Part shown: one piece after another, positions 57,248 through 62,481 of the stretch | How positions within the stretch are numbered: position 1 is the first letter of the stretch | How the letters are laid out: each line of letters starts with the position of its first letter | From: Pontibacter coccineus | Lineage (GTDB): Bacteria; Bacteroidota; Bacteroidia; Cytophagales; Hymenobacteraceae | Assembly (NCBI RefSeq): GCF_030546575.1 | Contig: NZ_JAUOTN010000002.1 | Span: 310,001 to 374,000 of the forward strand | DNA: 64,000 nucleotides | Direction: 5' to 3' | The notes under the pieces: model-generated | Seen by the model: only the letters and a program-made list of their open reading frames with translations | Told to the model about the DNA's origin: nothing | Database searches by the model: none | Translations under genes and position numbers: made by a program

Positions 57248-57574
57248 TTAGGCCATCTGTGCGTCCAGCTTGCCAGCCAGTACGTTTTTAGGCACAGCGC
57301 CTACCTGCTTGTCCACAACCTGTCCGTTTTTGAAAACGAGCAGTGTTGGGATGCTGCGGATACCGAACTTGGCAGAAGTCTGCGGGTTTGCGTCTACGTC
57401 AACTTTACCGATCACGGCTTTACCTTCGTACTCGCCAGCCAGCTCCTCTACAATTGGGCCTACCATGCGGCACGGACCGCACCACTCTGCCCAAAAGTCT
57501 ACCAATACGGGTTTATCTGAATTGATGATCTCATCAAAATTAGCGTCAGTGATTTCTAATGCTTTGTTAGCCAT
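57248..57574 (-). CDS. trxA: Thioredoxin
   Basis: 108 residues, the standard size. Active site WCGPC (31-35) in [20 protein letters not shown], the cis-proline in [14 protein letters not shown] and the ending [13 protein letters not shown] cytosolic dithiol reductant for ribonucleotide reductase, peroxiredoxins and other proteins. A promoter with both Bacteroidota boxes at 19-bp spacing lies just upstream (57609-57639). Confidence 0.97.
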
Positions 57575-57639: not shown

Positions 57640-57859
57640 TTTAAGCCCAAAGTGCTTCTGCCTGACAAGCTGTCCTGTTCCCGGGCAATTCCCGCTGCAA
57701 ATTTAGAACTTATACATACGACTATTGCAAGCGGAGGGTATATTTATTTGTATAAACAAATGTTGCGGGATTAAGTTTCATTGGCGAGGGGGTGGTAGAG
57801 GAGTGTTAACTTAATCTGGATGCTTAGTTGGTAGTAAGCTAGGAAAGTTACGGTAGGCT
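57640..57859. other. Intergenic region before the REP cluster
   Basis: About 220 bp with no gene; AT-rich and without a clear hairpin. Confidence 0.35.
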
Positions 57860-57987
57860 CTTTCGGATTTATCAATCCGAAAGTTAACTGTAGCGGATTT
57901 CTTAATCCGCGTATACAAACTTCATTTATTAATGCACGCGGATCTGGAGATGCGCAACAGTTATTCTTCGGATTGATAAATCCGAAG
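57860..57987. repeat. REP-like palindromes, left cluster
   Basis: Three short hairpins: CTTTCGGATT-TATC-AATCCGAAAG (57860-57883), GCGGATT-TCTT-AATCCGC (57893-57910) and CTTCGGATT-GATA-AATCCGAAG (57966-57987). The first two are joined by a TTAACTGTA linker. They precede the transposase gene. Confidence 0.85.
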
Positions 57988-58007
57988 CAGCATTAAGGGA
58001 AGCATTA

Positions 58008-58572
58008 ATGTTTCAGGAAATTGCGATGGGACTCAAAAACAGGATAGCAACAGGGAATTTATACTTCTTAACCTTAACAGTGGTGGATTGGGTAGACCTT
58101 TTCATGAGATCGATTTACAAGCACATTATAGTCAATTCCCTTAAGTTCTGTCAGGAAAAGAAAGGACTCCAGTTGTATGCCTGGGTGTTGATGACAAACC
58201 ATCTGCATATAATTGCGGCAGCAGATGAAGGCAAATAATTTATCTGACATCCTGCGCGATTTCAAGAAATTTACAAGTCGACAGCTGGTGGAAGCTATTC
58301 AGCAAGGAAATGAAAGTAGAAAAGAGTGGCTATTGTATCGCTTTCATTTAGCGGGCAAGTACGATCCAAAAATCACGCATTACAAACTTTGGCAAGACGG
58401 CAATGAAGCCAAAGAAATACACAGCAACACTTTTATGGAGCAGAAGCTGGAGTATATTCATCAGAACCCAGTTCGAGCGGAGTGGGTTGATGAACCCGAG
58501 CATTACAGGTATAGCTCAGCGGCTAATTATGCCGGGTTGGCTGGCTTGCTTCATGTGGAGTTTCTGGATTGA
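58008..58572 (+). pseudogene. REP-associated tyrosine transposase (Y1/HUH, RAYT-like), frameshifted
   Basis: Two overlapping frames make one protein. Frame 1 (58008-58238) gives LYFLTLTVVDWVDLFMRSIY and QLYAWVLMTNHLHIIAAADE, with the HUH motif HLH. Frame 2 (to 58572) gives NNLSDILRDFKKFTSRQLVE and the catalytic-tyrosine region QKLEYIHQNPVRAEWVDE, then HYRYSSAANYAG. The switch is at about 58230-58236, where GGCAAATAATTT appears to have one extra A. RAYTs are single-copy transposases thought to spread REP palindromes. As written the gene is broken, unless the AAA TAA site is read by a +1 shift. Confidence 0.8.
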
Positions 58573-58609
58573 TATTAGAATTTACTAGTTGCTACTTCAG
58601 AACCTGCTA

Positions 58610-58728
58610 CTTCGGATTTATCAATCCGAAGTTTAACTGTTTCGGGTCTCCAGACCCGCGTGTACCACCTTTTGGAATACGGGGATTAGGAAATCCACTA
58701 CAGTTAACTTTCGGATTGATAAATCCGA
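58610..58728. repeat. REP-like palindromes, right cluster
   Basis: CTTCGGATT-TATC-AATCCGAAG (58610-58631), CGGGTCT-CC-AGACCCG (58643-58658) and TCGGATT-GATA-AATCCGA (58711-58728), with the TTAACTGT linker after the first and its reverse complement before the last. The ends of the module are therefore in inverted orientation around the transposase gene. Confidence 0.85.
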
Positions 58729-58771
58729 GAGAGCAGTTTGCGATTCGGGCAGTGGTGTCCGAATGAGCAAC

Positions 58772-58857: not shown

Positions 58858-61800
58858 TTACAGCAGCTTACACTCTCCCAGTCCCAGGTCCTTGATCTGG
58901 CCCAGGAATACTTTCGGGTCAACGCGGTATTTGCGGGAGTAAGTGGGTAGCACCAGTTTTTCGTCTGGAACGTGGAGTGTGATTTCCAGTCGCTTCTGGC
59001 CCGGGCTGGTGGCGATGGCTTCTTCCAGGGCTTCAGCCAGGTTAGGGGTCAGGAGTTGCAGGTTTACGTTAACTTGCACGCCTTGTGCCATTTTGTCCAT
59101 CACGTCGCCCAAAAGCTGGATATTGGTAGGCTTAAGCTCCCACTGGTCCTCCGTTTTATAGCGCAGCTGCACCTTACCCCGGATGAACAGGTATAGCCCT
59201 TGCCGCAGGTAGGGCTGGAACTTCATGTAGTCCTCTCCGAACAGCGCCATTTGCAGCGTGGTATCATAGTCTTCGATCGAGAACAGCGCAAACGGGTTGC
59301 CGTTCTTGGCAGTACGGATCACCACTTCTGACACCATACCCGCCACATTGATGTCCTTGTTTTTGTGGTTGGCAATATCGGCTAATGCGGAGGTACAGTA
59401 TGAGTCGATCTCCATCTTGAACTGGTCGAGCGGGTGACCTGAGATGTAAAAGCCTACCACGTCTTTCTCACGGCGAAGCATTTCGGCCTGCGTCCATACC
59501 TGTACCTCGGGTATTTTTGGTAGCGGCGAGGCCACAGCGGCACTGCCCCCGAACAGCGACTGTTGCGCTGCCTGTTGCTCTGCCTGGTAGTTGTTGCCGT
59601 AGCGAACCGCTTTCTCCAGCAAACTGATGTTCTCGCCTTCTGGCACTTCCATTAACTGGGCGCGGTGATAGAGTCCCCAAGAGTCAAATGCTCCGGCCAA
59701 GGCCATGCTTTCAAAGGTCTTTTTGTTCACGGCACGCAGGTTGATGCGCTTCGAAAAGTCAAAGATATCCTGGTATGGACCGTTCTTTTCTCTTTCCGAA
59801 ATGATGGCGTCTACCGCGGCTTCGCCGGTGCCTTTTATCGCGGCCAGTCCGAAACGGATCTGCCCCTGTTCGTTCACGTTGAACTTCAGCAAAGATTCGT
59901 TCACGTCCGGACCAAGCACGGCAACACCTTGTTTGCGGGCCTCCTCAATAAAGAACGTCACCTTCTTGATGTCGTTCATGTTGTTGGTGAGTACCGCCGC
60001 CATGTACTCGGCAGGATAGTGCGCCTTCAGGTAACCGGTCTGGTAGGCCACCACGGAGTAAGCAGCAGAGTGCGAGCGGTTGAAGCCGTACTGGGCGAAC
60101 TTCTCCATCACGTCGAACACCTCCGAAGCTTTTTTCGCCGGGATCTTGTGCATTTCTGCGGCACCGGCGATGAACTTCTCACGCTCCTCGGCCATCTTCT
60201 TCATGTCTTTCTTACCCATGGCACGGCGAAGCAAGTCGGCGCCGCCCAGTGAGTAACCGGCCAGGATCTGGGCCGTCTGCATGATCTGCTCCTGGTACAC
60301 CATGATCCCGTAAGAGTAGTTCAGGATCGGCTCGAGCAGCTCGTGCGGGTATTCCACTTCCTCTTTGCCGTGCTTGCGGTTAATGAAGTTCGGGATGAAC
60401 TGCATCGGGCCCGGCCGGTAAAGGGCGTTCATGGCGATCAAATCTTCAATGTTGGTCGGCTGCAGGTCCTTGAGGTACATGCGCATACCTTCCGACTCGA
60501 ACTGGAACGTACCGATCGTATCGCCACGCTGGTATAGTTCGTACGTCTTCTCGTCATCTATCGGAATGTTGTCAATGTCGATCTCTACGCCGTGGTTCTT
60601 TTTGATCAGCTCCATGGCATCTTTGATGACGGTCAGGGTTTTCAGGCCCAAAAAGTCCATCTTCAGCATACCGGCACTCTCGATCACTTTGCCATCGAAC
60701 TGTGTCACGAGCAGGTCCGAGTCTTTGGAGGTCGAAACTGGTATGTAATTGGTGATGTCGTCCGGCGCGATGATCACACCGGCGGCGTGTATACCTGTGT
60801 TGCGGACCGAACCTTCCAGCTTTTCGGCCAGCTTGAGCACAGCAGCGCGCGCATCGTCTCCTTCGCGGATGGCGGCCAGCTCCAGGTTCTCCATGAAAGC
60901 CTTGGCCAGCGTAGTGCCCGGTGTGTCTGGTACCATTTTAGCCAGTTCGTTGGCCTCGGCCAATGGCAGTGAGGTAGAGCGAGCCACGTCTTTGATTGAC
61001 GATTTAGCGGCCATGGTGCCGAAGGTGATGATCTGGGCTACCTGCGTTTTGCCGTATTTGTCCACCACGTAATCGATCACGCGCTGGCGGTTCACGTCGT
61101 CGAAGTCGATGTCAATATCGGGCATCGACACACGCTCCGGGTTGAGGAATCGTTCGAAGAGCAGGTTATACTTGATCGGGTCGATGTTGGTAATACCGAC
61201 ACAGTAAGCCACAGCCGAACCGGCAGCAGAACCACGACCCGGACCCACGAACACACCCATATCACGGCCCCGGTTGATGAAGTCCTGCACGATCAAAAAG
61301 TAGCCGGCAAAACCCATCGTCTTGATCACGTGCAGCTCAAAATCGAGGCGCTCGGTCACTTCCGGGGTAATTTCAGAGTAGCGCTTGGCAGCCCCCTCGT
61401 AAGTCAGGTGGCGCAGGAAATCGTCGGCATTGGCATGCTCCGGCGGAATTGGGAAGTTCGGCAACAGGATGTCGCGCTTCAGAACGGGCGGTGTGATTTT
61501 GTCAACGATCTCGTTGGTGTTGTCCACGGCCTCCGGCACGTCCTTGAACAGCTGGTTCATCTCGGCCTGCGTTTTGAAGTAGAACTGGTCGTTCGGGAAA
61601 CCAAAACGGGTCTTCGGGCCGGCCTCGTCGATGCGCTGCAGCATCTGGCGCACGTTCATGTGGTTGCTATACTTGCTGCGCACGTTCTCAACGGTGTCAT
61701 AGATTACCTTCTGGTCGTCGCTCAGGAAGCGGTAATACTTGGTGGCAAAGTCGCCCACCGGTGTGCTCTGGTCTTCGCCGGTGTTCACGCATAGCAGAAT

Positions 61801-62481
61801 GTCGTGGGCGTTCCAGTCTTCCTGATCCACGTAGTGGGAGTCGTTGGTGCAGATCACCTTGCAGTTATACTTCTTCGCCCACTTCAGCAGCACCTGGTTA
61901 ATGTCCTCCTGGCTCTTGCCGGTGCCGTCGATGTTCATCAGGCCGTGGCGCTGTATCTCAATGTAGTAATCTTCACCGAACACATCCAGCCACCACTTGA
62001 ATATCTCCTCGGCCTCTTCTTCGCTTTTCCACAAAATGGCCTGTGGTACCTCGGCACCAATGCAGCAGCTAGTCGCGATCAGGCCCTTGCTATACTTGAG
62101 TAGCAGTTCCTTGTCGATGCGCGGCCACTTGCTGTATACCCCCTCAATGTAAGAAAGCGAGCAAAGCTTAGCCAAATTCTGGTAACCCTCCTGATCTTTA
62201 GCGAGCAGCAACTGGTGGTGGCGCACGTCTTTCTGTTCCTTGGTGAAGGTCTTCAGGTGGCGGTCTTTCACCAGATAGAACTCACAGCCCACGATCGGCT
62301 TCACGTTATATTTGTTGGCCTCGTTCACGAAGTTGAAGGCGGCGAACATGTTGCCGTGGTCGGTCATGGCAACGGCGGGCATGCCATCGGCCTGCGCCTT
62401 TTTCATGAGCGCGCTGATGCTGGCCTGACCGTCGAGCAGGGAGTACTGGGTATGGGTGTGTAAGTGCGAAAAAACTGGCAA
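58858..62481 (-). CDS. dnaE: DNA polymerase III subunit alpha
   Basis: 1207-residue replicative polymerase of the DnaE1 type. N-terminal PHP domain (SHLHTHTQYSLLDG, TDHGNMFA), palm with the GPGRGSAAGS block and catalytic aspartates in MPDIDIDFDD, finger and tau-contact region (GTFQFESEGMR, IAMNALYRPGP), the YGFNRSHSAAYSVVAYQTGY helix, helix-hairpin-helix near VNKKTFESMALAGAFDSWG, and an OB-fold (DINVAGMVSEVVIRTAKNG). Length is normal for Bacteroidota. Start at 62479-62481 gives the expected N-terminus. Confidence 0.98.
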   Translation of the reverse strand: MPVFSHLHTHTQYSLLDGQASISALMKKAQADGMPAVAMTDHGNMFAAFNFVNEANKYNVKPIVGCEFYLVKDRHLKTFTKEQKDVRHHQLLLAKDQEGYQNLAKLCSLSYIEGVYSKWPRIDKELLLKYSKGLIATSCCIGAEVPQAILWKSEEEAEEIFKWWLDVFGEDYYIEIQRHGLMNIDGTGKSQEDINQVLLKWAKKYNCKVICTNDSHYVDQEDWNAHDILLCVNTGEDQSTPVGDFATKYYRFLSDDQKVIYDTVENVRSKYSNHMNVRQMLQRIDEAGPKTRFGFPNDQFYFKTQAEMNQLFKDVPEAVDNTNEIVDKITPPVLKRDILLPNFPIPPEHANADDFLRHLTYEGAAKRYSEITPEVTERLDFELHVIKTMGFAGYFLIVQDFINRGRDMGVFVGPGRGSAAGSAVAYCVGITNIDPIKYNLLFERFLNPERVSMPDIDIDFDDVNRQRVIDYVVDKYGKTQVAQIITFGTMAAKSSIKDVARSTSLPLAEANELAKMVPDTPGTTLAKAFMENLELAAIREGDDARAAVLKLAEKLEGSVRNTGIHAAGVIIAPDDITNYIPVSTSKDSDLLVTQFDGKVIESAGMLKMDFLGLKTLTVIKDAMELIKKNHGVEIDIDNIPIDDEKTYELYQRGDTIGTFQFESEGMRMYLKDLQPTNIEDLIAMNALYRPGPMQFIPNFINRKHGKEEVEYPHELLEPILNYSYGIMVYQEQIMQTAQILAGYSLGGADLLRRAMGKKDMKKMAEEREKFIAGAAEMHKIPAKKASEVFDVMEKFAQYGFNRSHSAAYSVVAYQTGYLKAHYPAEYMAAVLTNNMNDIKKVTFFIEEARKQGVAVLGPDVNESLLKFNVNEQGQIRFGLAAIKGTGEAAVDAIISEREKNGPYQDIFDFSKRINLRAVNKKTFESMALAGAFDSWGLYHRAQLMEVPEGENISLLEKAVRYGNNYQAEQQAAQQSLFGGSAAVASPLPKIPEVQVWTQAEMLRREKDVVGFYISGHPLDQFKMEIDSYCTSALADIANHKNKDINVAGMVSEVVIRTAKNGNPFALFSIEDYDTTLQMALFGEDYMKFQPYLRQGLYLFIRGKVQLRYKTEDQWELKPTNIQLLGDVMDKMAQGVQVNVNLQLLTPNLAEALEEAIATSPGQKRLEITLHVPDEKLVLPTYSRKYRVDPKVFLGQIKDLGLGECKLL

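Follow-up and report, generated by a model that had tools for sequence, protein, structure and literature searches.

Anatomy of the dnaE-trxA locus

The interval between trxA and dnaE in a 64-kb stretch of the Pontibacter coccineus genome, referred to here as the window, contains two clusters of hairpins, at positions 57857-57992 and 58605-58735, with a Y1 transposase gene on the forward strand between them. An initial annotation had described six palindromes built on CGGATT...AATCCG on either side of the transposase, and these are present as five exact copies and one copy with 2 mismatches between 57864 and 58727. When the whole 64 kb was shuffled 100 times and searched for CGGATT-N4-AATCCG with up to 2 mismatches, the mean count was 2.0 and 1 shuffle reached 6. 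The number six holds for the CGGATT type, while the full number of hairpins is eight: four A and four B hairpins that form four half-units in two inverted pairs, each pair being a REPIN. The transposase does lie between the clusters as annotated, yet its gene is frameshifted by one base. The features are as follows.

57248..57574, reverse strand: trxA, one fixed neighbour of the module; protein 100% identical to that of P. amylolyticus
57857..57992, no strand: trxA-side REPIN, two half-units in inverted orientation
57857..57920, forward strand: half-unit 1, 79.4 bits with the covariance model; GCT, hairpin A at 57860-57883 (tip TT, loop TATC), linker TTAACTGTA, hairpin B at 57893-57910 (loop TCTT, foot of B GTAG)
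57928..57991, reverse strand: half-unit 2, 67.6 bits; hairpin A at 57965-57988, hairpin B at 57938-57955 with one mismatch
58008..58238, forward strand: 5' part of the RAYT gene up to the premature stop; HUH motif NHLH (H-L-H at 58200-58208), profile positions 7-68
58236..58236, forward strand: inserted base T58236, which shifts the RAYT frame; the only internal indel relative to three homologues
58237..58572, forward strand: 3' part of the RAYT gene in the shifted frame; W-Q and Y-I-H-Q-N-P (catalytic Tyr at 58453-58455), profile positions 68-146
58267..58269, forward strand: codon of residue x of RDFKxFTSR, which tracks the hairpin tip; it encodes Lys, the residue expected beside TT tips
58605..58735, no strand: dnaE-side REPIN, on the same side as the REPINs of relatives
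58606..58669, forward strand: half-unit 3, 69.5 bits; hairpin A at 58609-58632, hairpin B at 58642-58659 (TCGGGTC-TCCA-GACCCGC)
58671..58734, reverse strand: half-unit 4, 69.6 bits; hairpin A at 58708-58731, hairpin B at 58681-58698 (foot of B GTAG)
58858..62481, reverse strand: dnaE, the other fixed neighbour; last 300 amino acids 99.3% identical to P. amylolyticus

The half-units share one plan: GCT, hairpin A with a 10-bp stem, a linker that ends in CTGNN, hairpin B with a 7-bp stem, and then mostly GT; both loops have 4 nt. The B hairpins of the window vary (GCGGATT-TCTT, GCGCATC-TCCA with one mismatch, TCGGGTC-TCCA and GTGGATT-TCCT), and the inverted repeats within the two clusters span 63 nt at 90% and 58 nt at 88% identity. 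In an alignment of 60 half-units (A1) the foot of hairpin B reads G-N-N-G in 57, while GCT precedes hairpin A. The 5' GT[AG]G tetranucleotide by which REPs are defined is not conserved in these 60 half-units, being found at the foot of hairpin B in 4, including two of the four in the window. The motif GGGGWSAS of the flanking repeats of TIRYTs (terminal-repeat RAYTs) occurs in 0 of the 60; in the part of PMC3733652 covered it is reported for some TIRs only.

The N-terminal frame of the transposase gene carries NHLH, and the C-terminal frame carries WQ and YIHQNP. These agree with the motifs NH[LIV]H, WQ and YIH[QN]NP given for TnpAY1 subclass 2.6 (RAYT group 5), a subclass of Bacteroidetes whose genes are flanked by "atypical secondary structures" that lack a GT[AG]G consensus and have copies elsewhere in the genome (PMC6006769, sections used here). 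The window shares its motifs, host phylum, atypical flanks and dispersed copies with this subclass, so the kind of element is already known. As subclass 2.6 is described as lacking GT[AG]G, the family can be counted among REPs in that atypical class only. With the NCBIfam REP_Tyr_transpos equivalog NF047646 (cut-off 80) two intact homologues score 108 and 112 bits, and the two halves of the window gene score 47 and 50 bits over adjoining parts of the profile that meet at position 68; because of the frameshift each half alone falls below the cut-off. A search of the genome with a C-terminal query (E<=0.01) places RAYT sequence at one site. A longer query at E<=1e-20 gives 2 matches, one place being listed; within the window it matches 58068-58235 and 58228-58569, the two frames of the RAYT gene, and the second genome match is what we take to be the N-terminal part of this same gene.

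The profile scores, the fold of a homologue (see below) and the dispersed, mostly intergenic copies bear out the initial reading of the locus as a REP-RAYT module, and its motifs place it provisionally in subclass 2.6. We consider it probable that the locus represents a REPtron of the Bacteroidota in which the transposase gene died recently.

A dispersed family of paired half-units

The CGGATT-N4-AATCCG hairpin, for which a genome-wide count had been proposed, occurs 17 times in exact form in the 4.66-Mb genome, against 0 occurrences of the pattern read backwards. To cover the whole family a covariance model was built from the 60 half-units, and 150 of 1,368 genome candidates were scored, which gave 127 matches with E<=1. 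We define the half-unit set as the 101 matches spanning model positions 1-64 at E<0.01 and leave out two short matches below 0.01. The genome thus contains at least 101 half-units at 46 sites, mostly intergenic. A facing pair, or inverted doublet, is present at 33 of the 46 sites, compared with a mean of 13.5 and a maximum of 24 in 10,000 orientation shuffles. The expected clustering between genes is also seen: open stretches of at least 200 codons span 6 of 97 half-units but 70% of 1,000 random window positions used as control. At a threshold of 300 codons the values are 0 of 97 and 58.5%, and at 100 codons 39 of 97 and 84% (n=97, the four half-units of the window locus lying outside the analysed regions).

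The stem arms of the hairpins covary. When nothing but the left arm and the invariant CC core of the right arm is demanded, which 70 of 96 left-arm anchors satisfy, the tip positions pair in 67 of these 70 units, against a mean of 31.9 and a maximum of 45 in shuffles. In alignment A1 98.6% of cells are paired and changes on both sides number 183 against 56.7 cells, but the finder behind A1 itself requires pairing and we therefore rely on the left-arm/core test. The tips of hairpins A and B fall into several sub-types (GGATT/GGATT, GGACA/GGATG, GGACA/GGACA, GGATT or GGATA with GGGTC, and forms with a 3-nt loop), and the sub-types of the window genome are common to P. amylolyticus. The idea that both hairpins of a half-unit always share one tip was dropped, as GGACA occurs with GGATG (alpha) and GGATT with GGGTC (delta). 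Several half-units (at L157, L164, L161 and L195) have a GAGGGCCCCTACCCCC-like stretch in place of the A-B linker. Groups of three half-units ordered + - -, each about 200 bp long, recur in P. amylolyticus and in the window genome (G000 C6:511695-511894, C5:260841-261046, C7:584898-585098 and C8:318917-319116).

Of 42 compared regions of the window genome that hold a unit, 22 align on both sides to an occupied P. amylolyticus site; this count omits L180, a region whose match runs through repeats only. Among the other 20, the P. amylolyticus site lies outside the compared stretches except at L169 and L191. At L169 (C5:131.6 kb) approximately 670 bp with three half-units are absent from P. amylolyticus and P. 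indicus. This composite stretch lies, together with other repeats, within an AGGTATA tract and so does not demonstrate a REPIN transposing alone. At L191 both relatives lack the REPIN, although the intergenic regions are of very different length (326 bp here and 46 and 588 bp there). The covariance model found no unit at the relatives' four sites for L169 and L191, the best of 3 weak matches having E 0.16. A AGGTATAAGGTATA-like tract is present at the L169 sites of the two relatives that lack the stretch. L169 (660-1420) and L180 (907-1479) each contain a composite of about 560-570 bp with inverted terminal repeats of about 54 bp around a triple half-unit cluster, and these terminal repeats also occur as close pairs in the genomes of three relatives. 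The intergenic regions at L180 were not comparable, and no clean REPIN insertion is claimed for any of the three sites.

Across 50 genomes of the genus the median number of half-units is 39 in the 25 with a close RAYT (E<1e-40), 5.5 in the 18 with distant RAYTs only and 8 in the 7 with none, where counts near 100 are lower bounds, scoring having covered at most 106 candidates per genome. Those with a close RAYT exceed the rest (one-sided Mann-Whitney 1.4e-6). The initial annotation had taken hairpins in genomes that lack any RAYT as evidence against a REP-RAYT module, and in part these exist: the seven genomes with no detected RAYT carry 1, 5, 8, 8, 10, 20 and 36 half-units. They are no poorer in half-units than the genomes with distant RAYTs (p 0.43), which counts against a strict link. 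As half-units are more numerous where a close RAYT is present, we infer that the orphans are relics. Two genomes, G081 and G105, hold orphan populations of many half-units (36 and 60), with a RAYT not found or only a distant one.

Three other accounts of the element bear on this reading. The module could be an ordinary IS200/IS605 insertion sequence with hairpin ends, such as IS608 or ISDra2, which have the same HUH-Y1 catalytic fold and hairpins beside the gene, and the two homologues do show weak matches to the IS200/IS605 model (23.7 and 20.2 bits). These scores are below the cut-off of 55 while the same proteins exceed the RAYT cut-off, and the module, in place of several near-identical copies, is a single one by the C-terminal query (E<=0.01), at a chromosomal site conserved in two genera, which makes an insertion sequence highly improbable. 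Nor do we find it at all likely that the hairpins are mainly transcription terminators or mRNA-end structures with the RAYT as an incidental neighbour. Their intergenic placement and the 7 of 50 genomes that keep them with no detected RAYT would suit such a function, but inverted pairing beyond that of the shuffles, their occurrence beside RAYT genes in Pontibacter, Rufibacter and beyond, their abundance where a close RAYT is present and the association of tip and residue described below would not; a side role in transcription could still accompany the main one. The frameshift, being a single base with no other lesion, could also be a sequencing error or a programmed shift in an active RAYT. 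The inserted base lies outside any long homopolymer, and three other RAYT genes at the same site (L032, L035 and L022) carry stops, so inactivation is not rare and we judge an active gene unlikely.

Probable replacement of the transposase at a conserved site

Comparison of orthologous RAYT loci, which had been proposed as a check, shows that the site is conserved. Of the 30 best-matching RAYT loci (L016-L045), 26 adjoin dnaE and/or trxA, 21 in Pontibacter and 5 in Rufibacter as assigned by genus code, and the window copy is inverted. Relative to dnaE, 21 loci are codirectional and 5 opposite, including the window; one of the five (L043) is ambiguous since it has two convergent RAYTs. This Rufibacter locus holds both genes between dnaE and trxA, with the tip classes Lys/TT and Gln/GT. 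A further locus (L295, G019 C45), in a genome of the same family, has three RAYT genes within 7 kb, two of them flanked by hairpins ending GCCAATC. Opposite orientation goes with a trxA-side REPIN, found at 3 of 4 opposite loci and 1 of 21 codirectional ones (p 0.0067, a post hoc test on few loci that excludes L043; adding L043 to the opposite group gives p 0.0016).

Across 23 loci RAYT distance rises with DnaE distance (Mantel r 0.80, p 1e-4), as it does among the 19 Pontibacter loci (r 0.44, p 0.001). The window is an outlier, with the smallest DnaE distance (0.7% to P. amylolyticus) and a RAYT distance of 23.8%, whereas P. amylolyticus and P. indicus differ by 3.3% in DnaE and 12.2% in RAYT. 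At the DNA level the flanks of the window are 90% identical to P. amylolyticus and the RAYT 69.8%, reversed, and homology of the flank to two relatives stops approximately at the start of the trxA-side REPIN. In two RAYT trees P. amylolyticus and P. indicus form a pair (99/95 and 99/94) with the window placed elsewhere: it groups with L019 at 90/87 in one tree, and its position is open in the other. Judged from these distances and trees, a divergent RAYT probably replaced the resident one at the window locus, the copy being borrowed.

The alternative is that the gene is a vertical orthologue, inverted between its flanking REPINs and quickly diverged after inactivation. It occupies the same site, REPINs on both sides could invert a gene, and the co-occurrence of opposite orientation with a trxA-side REPIN is in keeping with this. 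A protein difference of 24% with a single lesion and no further stop hardly fits neutral decay, however, and the trees separate the window from the P. amylolyticus and P. indicus pair, while the two-RAYT locus is a plausible intermediate of replacement. We thus regard simple inversion as improbable. If replacement did occur, the class of the incoming RAYT was not new to the lineage: P. amylolyticus has 3 units of the delta class (GGATT or GGATA with GGGTC), and for this reason we dropped the proposal that this class arrived together with the new RAYT. Many of the window genome's hairpins belong to the GGACA class, the class that flanks the P. amylolyticus RAYT. An older half-unit of the T type is present in P. 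amylolyticus outside its CA REPIN, which may thus have been added there instead of being an orthologue that changed.

A transposase residue that tracks the hairpin tip

To compare proteins and hairpins we classed 26 loci according to the tips of the hairpins adjoining the RAYT, 9 as CA and 17 as T-type (TT or CT); at L018 an outer T-type half-unit is also present and the label was set by the gene-side REPIN. In a scan of 182 alignment columns the residue x of RDFKxFTSR stands out: all 9 CA loci have Gly there, as against 1 of the 17 T loci (Fisher 3.2e-6). Gln at x comes second with p 0.0039, and the best of the other columns reaches 0.008; the 1% quantile of the minimum p over 200 label permutations is 4e-4. 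Both the RAYT tree and the DnaE tree show 7 changes of the tip label. Independent pairs on well-supported branches number 3 in a RAYT tree built without column x and the positions next to it and 2 in the DnaE tree; each whole best tree has 7. The 3 supported pairs all point the same way in most of 200 pairings, with none opposite, although 3 pairs cannot reach 0.05.

For a wider set, 155 RAYT genes (duplicates included) and the window were reduced to 119 after removal of duplicates and fragments. Of these, 74 with G[GA][AG]NN hairpins were kept and 45 dropped, and 5 with other tips were left out, giving 69. Gly occurs with CA in 10 and TT/CT in 1, Lys with TT in 40, Gln with TT/CT in 10 and GT in 1, Arg with GT in 5 and TT in 1, and Ser with TT/CT in 1. 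CA tips are therefore found beside 10 of 11 Gly RAYTs and 0 of 58 others (p 3e-11; the next column reaches 7e-6). Outside the discovery set, 43 loci show Lys with TT in 34 of 34, Arg with GT in 5 of 6, Gly with CA in 1 of 1, Gln with GT in 1 and Ser with TT/CT in 1, so the Gly-CA half of the code has a single fresh case. For GT tips in these 43 loci another column ranks first (6e-6) and x second (3.7e-5).

When hairpins are instead counted over whole genomes, column x comes first in 21 genomes through Gln (0.0027) and Gly gives 0.017, equal to the next column, a modest effect overall. The one exception among the Gly RAYTs, L034, has CT/TT flanks in a genome with 0 CGGACA and 10 CGGAYT hairpins. 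The window genome, with its Lys-type RAYT, holds a mixture of 26 CGGACA and 20 CGGAYT hairpins, an excess of CA that is as expected if an old class has been orphaned. Both traits also differ between P. amylolyticus and P. indicus, although their RAYTs are sister proteins with 88% identity: the former has Gly and GGACA/GGACG tips, the latter Gln and GGACT/GGATT tips. The initial suggestion that this family may have a distinct recognition code is supported in a sharper form, namely that the hairpin tip tracks one RAYT residue.

The position of x in the protein is consistent with a role in recognition. In a model of the P. amylolyticus RAYT (not the window gene; pLDDT 85.5) x is residue 81, in a helix of residues 72-93 that follows the HUH strand. 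The nearest structure to this model is 4ER8, E. coli TnpAREP (Z 14.4, rmsd 2.8 over 139 residues), and in a sequence alignment x falls on Q83, next to K82; there is a gap of one residue close by, and the register is uncertain by about 1 residue. K82 lies on the conserved DNA-binding helix alpha3 and contacts C27 of the REP stem (PMC8266576, portion covered).

The link between x and tip could also reflect shared ancestry, the RAYT and its flanking REPIN being inherited as one block with x playing no part in recognition. This is possible, though we are inclined to doubt it. The small number of independent switches on supported branches (3), the correlation of RAYT and DnaE distances, the association of other columns in the wider set and the failure of Gly alone to do better than another column's best against genome-wide hairpins would all be expected from common descent. 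All columns share the same tree, yet the lead of x over any other amounts to three orders of magnitude for the discovery loci and five for the 69 RAYTs; it also ranks first through Gln against genome-wide hairpins, aligns beside a known hairpin-contacting residue and differs together with the tip in the P. amylolyticus and P. indicus sisters. On balance we lean towards x being a natural specificity switch of Bacteroidota RAYTs, with Gly, Gln, Lys and Arg selecting CA, CT/TT, TT and GT, and with changes of x or swaps of the whole cassette at dnaE-trxA recoding the REPINs and leaving the old class as orphans.

The E. coli REPtron is the nearest well-described system, with the closest fold, REPs in inverted pairs and a hairpin contacted by helix alpha3. 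In the parts of PMC8266576 covered, the E. coli REP has a GTAG foot and a bulged stem and its enzyme reads the foot and mid-stem, whereas the family described here has a G-N-N-G foot on hairpin B, near-perfect stems and variable tip pairs that track the protein. Discrimination of own REPs was tested there for three enzymes, which belong to two other groups, and SELEX was applied to the E. coli enzyme. The same parts of PMC8266576, and those of PMC6006769, call the Bacteroidota class at most "atypical", and the literature covered reports no activity of subclass 2.6 enzymes. The sections of PMC6006769 used here do not resolve the subclass 2.6 structures into tandem double-hairpin half-units in inverted pairs or describe a link between a residue and the hairpin tip, and the part of PMC3733652 covered has no description of a Bacteroidota double-hairpin element. 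Within this scope our literature search found no account of the double-hairpin anatomy or of a tip-tracking residue. What is new is the dnaE/trxA site with its probable swap, a frameshifted RAYT that is the only one found in a genome where many hairpins belong to the GGACA class, and the tip-tracking residue x.

We propose that intact relatives of the window RAYT would bind single-stranded REPIN DNA as folded hairpins, and that their HUH/Tyr centre would cut and rejoin it, by which REPINs would spread. The helix after the HUH strand would read the hairpin, and x would set, or help set, the two base pairs accepted at the tip (CA for Gly, TT for Lys, GT for Arg, CT and TT for Gln). Where a RAYT is replaced or its residue changed, REPINs of the old class would stay as orphans. 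In the window genome the RAYT of the P. amylolyticus lineage, which is Gly-type there, appears to have given way to a Lys-type RAYT that has TT-type REPINs and lies in the opposite orientation, and this incoming gene to have been inactivated afterwards.

The Bacteroidota class now has a defined anatomy and a covariance model. Natural pairs are available, the best being P. amylolyticus and P. indicus, in which the one residue and all four gene-side REPIN hairpins differ, and these make a recognition code directly testable by point substitution in vitro. The locus also suggests a way in which a host-bound transposase could give way to another and leave its old REPs behind.
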